DNA of 60,773 nucleotides from Candidatus Blautia merdavium (GTDB lineage: Bacteria > Bacillota > Clostridia > Lachnospirales > Lachnospiraceae): assembly GCA_019119975.1 (NCBI GenBank), contig DWVZ01000009.1:1-60773 (forward strand). Direction: 5' to 3'. The position numbers were made by a program, and so were the translations under genes. Numbering within the stretch: position 1 is the stretch's first letter; the number at the start of each line of letters is the position of its first letter. Positions 38,051 to 46,707 of the stretch are shown here, in pieces. The notes below the pieces were generated by a model, which made no database searches, was not told where the DNA came from, and saw nothing but the letters and a program-made list of their open reading frames with translations.

Positions 38051-38676
38051 GAGCAAAGATCTCCTCCCATACACTCACATAAGCTGTCTGCACACCACAG
38101 ATCACAGCAGAGATTTCCCGTGCCGCAGGTACTTCCTGTCCCGCCGCCGTAGGGATATCCGCCGCCCTGATAGCGGTTGCTGTTCCACTGGAGCCGGTTC
38201 ACCAGATTGGCATATTCCGGATTGCCCGGATCCATGCTCTGCGCCTGCCGCGCCATATTTAAAGCATTGACATTGTTGCCCATTCCAGCATTGGCACAGG
38301 CGCTGAGATAATACCACTGTGCGCTGCGGTTGGAGATCCTGCTGAGCACATTCAGCGCCTGCTGGTACTGGCGTCCGTTGATATAATTGGCAGCTGCCTG
38401 CAGCTCCAGATCGCTGGAACCGCCGGACTGGTAAGAGCCCTGGCTGGTACTCTGGTAACCGCCGTATCCACTCTGGTATCCTCCGTCTCTTTCCTTCATG
38501 ATCTGGTCATAAGCTTCCTGTACTTCTTTAAATTTTTCTTCCGCAAGGTCTGCCAGTGGGTTGTCTACATAGGAATCCGGATGATATTTCCTGCTCAGAT
38601 CCCTGTATGCGCGTTTGATCTCATCATTGGAAGCATTGGGGGACACCCCTAAGACTTCATATGGATTATTTACCAT
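38041..38676 (-). CDS. J-domain protein with TPR-like region and Cys-rich C-terminus
   Basis: [32 protein letters not shown]-terminus [28 protein letters not shown]. Confidence 0.88.
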
Positions 38677-39523
38677 GATTTTCCTTATTCTCCTGTCTTT
38701 CTTTTTGTACTTTCTCGTATTTCGCCCATACGCCTCTGTAGAGAATGTTTCTCAGTATCTCTGCGTCCAGAAGGCAGGGCAGCTTCTCAAATGCCGCCGT
38801 GGCTTCCGCCATCATCATAAGCAGTATCTGTCTTACTTCTTCTTCATATTCTTCTTCCTTTTGGCAGCGTCTTCGCACTGCTTTTAAAGGATTATAGGAA
38901 CCGGTTTTGCTGTCCTTTGGCAGATCCTCCCAGGCGTCTATAATATAGATAAATTTGCCCAGATAAAACCCGAATGTTCTCAGAGTTTCCTCCCACATAT
39001 CTGCCCGGTATACAAACAGTTCCTCCATCAGCCTGCCGAAAATCCCTGCTGCCAGATCAATGTCTTCCTCTCCCTTTTCCTCGCAGGCTGCCAAAAGCTT
39101 CAGCTGCTTTTGTATGACCTTTGCCTGCCTGGGATATTCCCGGCAGATATCCTTTGCTTTCCTGCCGAACAGGCGCATGCCTGCCAGACCGGACACGCTT
39201 TTGTCATCCTTCCAGTCGTCTTCAAAGTTAAAATATGCCAGCAGGATGTTCATCTTTGCCCCGTACCGGGAAAATTCATTCTGCAGCATGGGGATCTTTT
39301 TCACCGGGTGCAGCGGACAATGGGACTGCAGCTGTTCTGTATCCTTTTCATACAGTGAGGTAAGAAAAAGTACCAGGAAAGTCATGTCGTAGGTCAGGGT
39401 CATCCGCCCCCGGAATCCATACTCTTCTTTCAGGGTGCGGCACAGTCCGCAGTAGTATGCTTTGTACCGGCTGAATTCCTTTACCTTTAATTCCGGTTTG
39501 TCGATCATGATGTATCCAAACAT
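38666..39523 (-). CDS. DUF5685-like protein of unknown function
   Basis: [36 protein letters not shown]...; Asp-rich NFEDDWKDD and [20 protein letters not shown]. Confidence 0.65.
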
Positions 39524-39564
39524 GGCTTCTGCACCTTCCTTCTTCTCAGACCTCATGTTTTTCT

Positions 39565-39688
39565 ATTATACCATGGTCACGAACCTCATGCTGCGCCCTT
39601 GTCTTGCATTCGCTAAGTGTCCAGGTATATGTTCTCACTAAATTCGTACGGCGCCCTTGGCTTGTACTCATCAAGTGTTCACATTATA
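39565..39688 (-). repeat. 124-nt structured repeat element, copy 1
   Basis: Reverse complement matches 45855-45978 over all 124 nt with 8 differences and no gaps; contains two 42-nt hairpin-like units. Confidence 0.92.
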
Positions 39689-45831: not shown

Positions 45832-45860
45832 TTGTTATAAAAAAAACACTGTGTTATAAT
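45832..45860 (+). promoter_or_regulatory. Sigma-A-like promoter reading into repeat copy 2
   Basis: TTGTTA (45832-45837), 17-nt spacer, TATAAT (45855-45860). Confidence 0.65.
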
Positions 45861-45978
45861 GTGAACACTTGATGAGCACAAGCCAAGGGCGCCGTGCGAA
45901 TTTAGTGAAAACATATACCTGGATACTTAGCGAATGCAAGCCAAAGGCGCCGCATGAGGTTAGTGACCATGGTATAAT
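45855..45978 (+). repeat. 124-nt structured repeat element, copy 2
   Basis: Ungapped 116/124 identity to the reverse complement of 39565-39688; two 42-nt units with period 58; ends in extended -10 TGGTATAAT. Confidence 0.92.
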
Positions 45979-46035: not shown

Positions 46036-46707
46036 ATGAGAGATGAGTTTATGGAGTTCATGAAAAAGTATAAACACGCCTGGGTGATCCCCGTGTACGG
46101 CATCCTGTATCTGTTGGCTTTCCAGTATGTGGAGCACAGAAAGGTACGTCCTTATATCATCCATATGAAGATTGACGATGCTATTCCCTTCTGTGAATAT
46201 TTCGTTATCCCTTACTTTTTATGGTTTGCCTACATTGCCGTCACAGTCTTTTACTTTACTTTTATCAATAAGAATAAAAAAGAATACTGGCAGCTGGTCT
46301 GTTCCCTGGGCATCGGCATGACGCTCTTTATTGTGGTATCGCTGCTTTTTCCCAACGGGCAGGATCTGCGTCCCTCCCTTTCCAATACCCAGAACAGTAT
46401 TTTTATCGAAATGGTACGATACTTATATCGCTTGGACACACCTACCAATATTTTTCCCAGCATTCATGTATTCAATTCGGTCAGCTGCTGTCTGGCAGTT
46501 TTCCATCATAAGCCCTTCCGGAAGCATAAGGTATTCCTGGGCGGTACGGCAGTCCTGACTGCCCTGATCGTCCTTTCCACCATCTTCCTGAAGCAGCATA
46601 CTCTGATCGATATGGCGGCTGCTTTTGCACTGAATGCGGTTTGTTACCAGCTGCTCTATAAGACACGGTCTGTAAAGGAAAAACAGCCCGCACGGGCGCG
46701 GGCATAA
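46036..46707 (+). CDS. PAP2-like membrane phosphatase family protein
   Basis: FPSIHVFNSVSCCLAVFHHK and STIFLKQHTLIDMAAAFAL in a multi-TM protein. Confidence 0.75.
   Translation: MRDEFMEFMKKYKHAWVIPVYGILYLLAFQYVEHRKVRPYIIHMKIDDAIPFCEYFVIPYFLWFAYIAVTVFYFTFINKNKKEYWQLVCSLGIGMTLFIVVSLLFPNGQDLRPSLSNTQNSIFIEMVRYLYRLDTPTNIFPSIHVFNSVSCCLAVFHHKPFRKHKVFLGGTAVLTALIVLSTIFLKQHTLIDMAAAFALNAVCYQLLYKTRSVKEKQPARARA

Follow-up and report, generated by a model that had tools for sequence, protein, structure and literature searches.

What is the structured 124-nt repeat that lies just upstream of a DUF5685-like gene in Candidatus Blautia merdavium, and does it belong to that gene? The window, by which we mean the whole 60,773-nt stretch of contig DWVZ01000009.1 that was analyzed, carries two copies on opposite strands (Table 1). 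An earlier, sequence-only reading had located both copies and proposed that each contains two related units of 42 nt, spaced 58 nt from start to start, that form tandem hairpins. Its sequence, strands and coordinates are correct: the copies are 94% identical over 124 nt, with 8 differences and 0 gaps; covariance-model matches recover both units in each copy; and RNA folding returns precisely the proposed hairpins (-33.4 kcal/mol, z -2.8 versus dinucleotide shuffles, for copy 1; -40.0 kcal/mol, z -4.0, for copy 2). The difference singled out as covarying, GTAC/GTAC in copy 1 versus GCAC/GTGC in copy 2, is real and compensatory. The gene beside copy 1 was also named correctly, as its PF18937 match attests; a start at 39526 appears more likely for it, as that ATG is conserved in congeners.

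Table 1 Features of the two copies and their neighbors in the window
Feature	Position	Strand	Evidence
Copy 1, 124 nt: 118-nt element (39571-39688) plus host -10 hexamer (39565-39570)	39565..39688	-	Site empty in G013
Copy 1 left end: element-borne TATAAT behind host TAG, putative new -10 box	39683..39688	-	Left hexamer TATAAT in 14/15 copies, right varies
Copy 1 hairpin H1 core, 42 nt	39636..39677	-	cmsearch R1, 62.7 bits
Copy 1 hairpin H2 core, 42 nt, apex partly decayed	39578..39619	-	cmsearch R1, 45.7 bits
Original -10 TATAAT of the DUF5685-gene promoter, now after element-borne CCATGG	39565..39570	-	G013 empty site: single GTATAAT
DUF5685 gene	38666..39556	-	PF18937, 3.3e-111
Copy 2, 124 nt: 118-nt element (45855-45972) plus host -10 hexamer (45973-45978)	45855..45978	+	
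Host -35-like TTGTTA (45832-45837) and 17-nt spacer ending TGT, 5' of element-borne TATAAT	45832..45854	+	-35 enrichment over 15 loci
Copy 2 hairpin H1 core	45866..45907	+	cmsearch, 62.1 bits
Copy 2 hairpin H2 core; basal stem ATACCTGG/CCATGGTAT draws on the element's right end	45924..45965	+	cmsearch, 65.7 bits; fold
PAP2-like protein gene downstream of copy 2	46036..46707	+	PF14378, 7.1e-7

Dispersed copies and empty sites

The window's own genome (G000; 3.35 Mb in 235 contigs) contains about 17 near-complete 124-bp copies, 86 to 100% identical, and about ten fragments; the element was found at at least 16 places. Covariance-model scores in this genome reach 69.8 bits (E = 5.6e-13 per genome), which argues that the repeat is not a product of chance. 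Where copies adjoin, as in the tandem on C219 and the full and partial copies on C233 and C150, they overlap by a common TATAAT, and the true unit is therefore 118 nt. On four other contigs (C46, C129, C149 and C235; loci L018, L021, L026 and L020), copies have internal deletions and keep both ends, e.g., TATAATGGGAACACTTGATTAGTGACCATGGTATCAT. A search of 19 congeners at E 0.001 did not recover the 124-nt unit; it gave only 42-nt units or single stretches reaching ~105 nt at 70%. Phage, viral, and plasmid collections gave no match to the element, and IMG/VR gave no exact match to the hairpin pattern. The comparison with Rfam that had been suggested, which might have revealed a known RNA family, did not do so: Rfam 15 had no match in the window at the gathering threshold and, for the surroundings of copy 2, no credible match even when E was relaxed to 10.

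The promoter occupied by copy 1 lacks the element in G013, the nearest congener found, and the difference is exactly 118 bp (...AAAGGTATAGTATAATAGAAAAACATGAG... in G013 versus ...AAGGTATAGTATAATGTGAACACTT...CCATGGTATAATAGAAAAACATGAG... in G000). The L011 site is also empty in G013. At L013, the empty site ATGATACAAT agrees with the right junction in G000, TACAAT; at L016, the empty site is TGTGTTACAAT and the right hexamer in G000 is TAGAAT. A regulatory RNA dedicated to the DUF5685 gene, which the placement and orientation of copy 1 had implied, is thus unsupported, because the congener lacks the element there and the copies in G000 precede at least 16 unrelated genes.

Position of the element within the promoter

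Of 15 copies, 14 have TATAAT as the left hexamer (L011 has TATATT), whereas the right hexamer varies among TATAAT, TAGGAT, TATCAT, TATATT, TACAAT, TATACT, CATAAT and TAGAAT, matching TATAAT at 4 to 6 of its 6 positions. Since the left hexamer is nearly constant and the variable right one matches the empty sites in G013, the former is element-borne and the latter is the original -10. The 124-nt extent described earlier stands as the extent of the repeat, but its outer TATAATs differ in origin. The element itself, TATAATG...CCATGG, is inserted between a TGN motif and the -10 hexamer. TG occupies the extended -10 position, two bases 5' of the left junction, in 12 of 15 loci; -35-like hexamers 15 to 19 nt from the left junction exceed those of shuffled flanks (0.0005; 15 loci); and a same-strand ORF begins 8 to 172 nt downstream in 16 of the 16 loci tested. 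Because the left end gives TATAAT behind the host TGN and the right end gives TGG before the old -10, both junctions resemble extended -10 boxes. The hairpin pair also lies between TATAAT-like boxes, as in G000, in Blautia schinkii (L279, L318) and Clostridium fessum (L316). The junctions fit a TA duplication nearly everywhere and fit zero duplication about equally well; the two are indistinguishable because target and element end have TA in common.

We conclude, with a probability of roughly 0.8, that the repeat is a 118-nt non-coding, non-autonomous mobile element with two same-strand hairpins that inserts gene-facing between TGN and -10 and would thereby double the promoter and be transcribed as a leader. 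The dispersal, empty sites, exact junctions, orientation, and conserved structure were seen directly. The structured, covarying twin-hairpin element of the sequence-only reading is strongly upheld, having withstood all three of the refuting conditions set for it, but its reach is wider: the structure would be the cargo of a mobile insertion at the -10 box, and the hairpin module extends over the whole family, mostly at sites that follow stop codons of strongly expressed operons. The targets would be mostly extended -10, sigma-A-type promoters, with the element always oriented towards the gene. Its TATAAT, together with the host -35 and TGN, would compose a working-looking promoter, and its CCATGG would provide a new TGG for the host's original -10 hexamer; the promoter would be doubled rather than destroyed if both junctions are active. 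Transcription from the left junction would probably start near the first hairpin and give the gene a twin-hairpin 5' leader. The orientation bias is no proof of an RNA function, because an asymmetric target alone could produce it. Movement may depend on a trans-acting enzyme that acts on the common ends (TATAAT...CATGG).

An element whose ends make up both halves of an extended -10 promoter would have a simple way into a promoter without killing it, and a way of being transcribed by it. If active, such elements could rewire the 5' leaders of many genes together, create strain-to-strain expression differences, and serve as a natural tool for insertion into promoters.

Structure and distribution of the hairpin module

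A search of the genome and its relatives with a covariance model, suggested earlier as a check, revealed further copies. The model (R1), built from 20 units, detects the module at E 0.01 in at least 87 of 200 genera of the same GTDB family; such counts are lower bounds because at most 32 candidates were scored per genome. Outside the family but within the order, only two genomes had matches, both marginal. Among the matches listed, a pattern scan of GTDB added Anaerovibrio and Selenomonas; the named species among them were Blautia schinkii, B. glucerasea, Eubacterium ramulus, Clostridium symbiosum, Faecalicatena contorta, and C. fessum. The module is repeated in Anaerovibrio and Selenomonas, which are Negativicutes, beyond the main family (L281, L311, L280, L320, L331, L333).

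Covariation extends well past the single pair first noticed. Among 130 distinct 42-nt copies, 93.5% of cells are paired, both partners vary in 13 of the 14 pairs, and the observed score is reached by none of 500 shuffles; this alignment was fitted to the model, and an unfitted 20-sequence alignment agrees. In a strand comparison, the alignment contains 35 G.U and 26 A.C cells, a difference too slight to indicate the strand. The positions that vary least of all are unpaired: a U.U mismatch (U5 and U48, in 130 and 129 of 130 copies) and a GA/GA internal loop (G9A10 and G43A44, in 127 to 129). Invariance of this kind would be required by a bound partner or by recognition in the course of movement, and the mismatches point to a protein or RNA partner. 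We regard the repeats as a real, new family of small mobile repeats whose promoter target is unusual and exact and whose covarying hairpin module is widely shared. The elements are spread over a dominant gut-bacterial family and absent from every RNA library searched; we found no earlier description in Lachnospiraceae in the open-access literature.

Hairpin pairs behind stop codons

In other genera, the hairpin pair lies on the sense strand directly 3' of stop codons in operons for ribosomal proteins, chaperones, and glycolysis, in gaps that we take, from the protein ends, to be rpsN-rpsH, rpsH-rplF, rpsM-rpsK, ssb-rpsR, grpE-dnaK, dnaK-dnaJ, and pgk-tpiA. Because the same pair occurs at stop codons there, the hairpins alone do not account for targeting of the -10 box. 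Among 80 clusters, 38 start within 20 nt after an ORF stop in sense (27 of these at 7 to 9 nt), against 6 in the mirrored antisense control and 3.5% at random positions. This test considered ORFs of at least 70 codons, and its sense count omits rpsN sites because the rpsN protein is shorter than 70 aa; it was used in place of an ORF-orientation table, which is noisy, with antisense ORFs overlapping real genes. Hairpin pairs also occur in sense immediately after tRNA genes (L123, L145, L149, L161, L168).

These sites speak for a selected cis-acting RNA, in which the pair would be a functional leader or intercistronic RNA (acting in processing, stability, or protein binding) spread by its usefulness. 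The kinds of operon that host the pair, its strand preference, and the near-invariance of the unpaired U.U and GA/GA positions would all fit, and so would the compensatory H2 basal stem: in 15 operon-site sequences, whose arms were joined by hand, 98.9% of cells are paired and 8 of 12 pairs are doubly changed, with 0 of 500 shuffles reaching the covariation score. However, presence at the same site varies among congeners. At rpsH-rplF, four genomes (G012, G019, G002, G006) have a plain TAA stop and no element, and G008 and G014 have TAG followed by the hairpin pair; at rpsN-rpsH, G005 retains only a remnant. In addition, the downstream genes in G000 have no common function, and movement that needs the structure would conserve it too. 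We consider a selected cis-acting RNA possible but less likely than not.

Relationship to known mobile repeats

Dispersal, conserved secondary structure, and signs of mobility are also features of the bcr1 repeats of Bacillus cereus, whose likeness to the present element is one of general description only. Correia/NEMIS, RUP, ERIC, and CIR repeats (PMC2229807) and pneumococcal BOX, RUP, and SPRITE repeats (PMC3049150) are likewise non-coding, 100 to 200 bp long, dispersed, strongly folded, and intergenic; repeats of these types are presumably also moved in trans, and some bear promoters. CIR folds as two independent hairpins, like the present element (PMC2229807). Unlike these repeats, the present element has no terminal inverted repeats, a single exact insertion point in the -10 region, two directly repeated homologous hairpins, and invariant U.U and GA/GA mismatches. 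We place it with the MITE/REP/BOX-like repeats, and it departs from the definition of every named family tested.

An ordinary MITE of the Correia, RUP, or ERIC type, moved by a DDE transposase with TA target duplication, would account for a dispersed, non-coding, highly structured element of under 200 bp with clean empty sites, and the TAs at the junctions (TA/TAATGTG...CCATGG/TA) would fit a duplication like that of the bacterial elements in PMC2229807. Targeting of sigma-A promoters in a fixed orientation has a precedent in the transposons TnGBS, ISLre2, and ISKra4, which land 15 to 17 bp upstream of the -35 (PMC3942029). Those transposons, however, are autonomous and have inverted repeats, whereas the ends of the present element, TATAATGTGAACAC... 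and ...GTGACCATGG, are not inverted repeats, and its fixed point is just 5' of the -10 hexamer. With the TA duplication itself ambiguous, a DDE-mobilized MITE seems rather unlikely.

A REP-like route, in which the hairpins are moved as single-stranded DNA by a Y1 (HUH) transposase of the IS200/IS605 or RAYT kind, was the first guess because two imperfect same-strand hairpins lie close to both ends, inverted repeats are absent, and GTAG REPs have a similar apical loop and TAG stops. GTAG REPs and BIMEs with RAYT are likewise short, imperfect, paired hairpins with an AA/GC-like internal loop that stand behind coding regions and often supply the TAG stop (PMC3733652). Among the 38 stops beside hairpins, 23 are TAG, 9 TGA, and 6 TAA, compared with 89, 118, and 250 of all 457 stops in the same loci. 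The present element nevertheless differs in its longer, multi-part stem and direct-orientation pairs, and it lacks the GTAG tag: the -10 type begins TATAATG, and in the operon type there is often just (N)TAG or TGA. Nor is there a RAYT association in these genomes. Y1_Tnp has no match in G000, so no such transposase can be tied to the element; it occurs in 54 of 87 hairpin-positive and 61 of 113 hairpin-negative genomes and hence is not associated with the hairpin; and no credible hairpin adjoins any of 60 Y1/RAYT loci. On these grounds, we rejected Y1/RAYT (IS200/IS605) enzymes as the mover and hold this route to be improbable.

That GC-rich hairpins near genes are an intrinsic terminator, an attenuator, or a chance repeat is hardly credible, since the empty sites refute it, neither hairpin is followed by a U-run, the mismatches are conserved, and the insertion boundaries are exact. 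Type III toxin-antitoxin RNA repeats were also rejected: no ToxN/CptN/TenpN-like toxin gene neighbors the copies, and domain matches identify the genes near the copies in the window as DUF5685, RelA_SpoT, GDPD, and PAP2.

A different structured element in sister species

At two first-element sites of G000 (L010, L015), the corresponding promoter in G013 holds a different, strongly folded element of ~129 nt plus the hexamer, which also reads TATAAT...CATGG/TATAAT. This second element is multi-hairpin, unrelated in sequence to the first, and without an Rfam match; it too lies at -10 boxes and has matching ends. There are six full copies in G013 (L431, L432, L439, L443, L446, L449) and others in G008 (L433, L436), G004 (L434, L437, L445), and G014 (L438, L440, L444, L447), two of the G014 copies having one TATAAT in common; a sequence search found none in G000. 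Five of the six G013 copies stand at promoters orthologous to first-element sites of G000 (L005, L006, L010, L015, and the remnant L026). That unrelated cores with common ends occupy shared promoters could reflect a single machinery, cassette exchange, or a very strong site preference. Tentatively, and with fairly low confidence, we propose that a dedicated machinery may insert short, structured, RNA-like cassettes that have ends in common (TATAAT ... ATTATACCNGG or ATATACCTGG ... C(A/G)TGG) into the -10 boxes of a fixed promoter set and remove them again; at a given promoter, the cores would then be unrelated between sister species, and each cassette would form the gene's 5' leader and leave the promoter unbroken.

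In the right flanks of L005, L008, L431, L439, L443, L434, L438, and L445, a full element is followed by a second copy cut to its left end; such copies might have arisen when a circular template was read through. One element is nested within another in G011. Near a copy of the second element, L433 (54-374, +) matches the cspA thermoregulator at 57.8 bits, below the gathering threshold of 78.

Two further observations concern the hairpin module. In the rpsN-rpsH gap of the sister species G008 and G014 (L208, L209), where the region is 93% identical, the apical hairpin sequences are wholly different and the arms are kept. In a third setting, the 42-nt hairpin lies inside longer, lineage-specific palindromic repeats, often between convergent genes (L133, L157, L160, and L165 in G072; L126, L146, L162, and L173 in G125; L136, L137, and L143 in G021; L119, L139, and L141 in G081).
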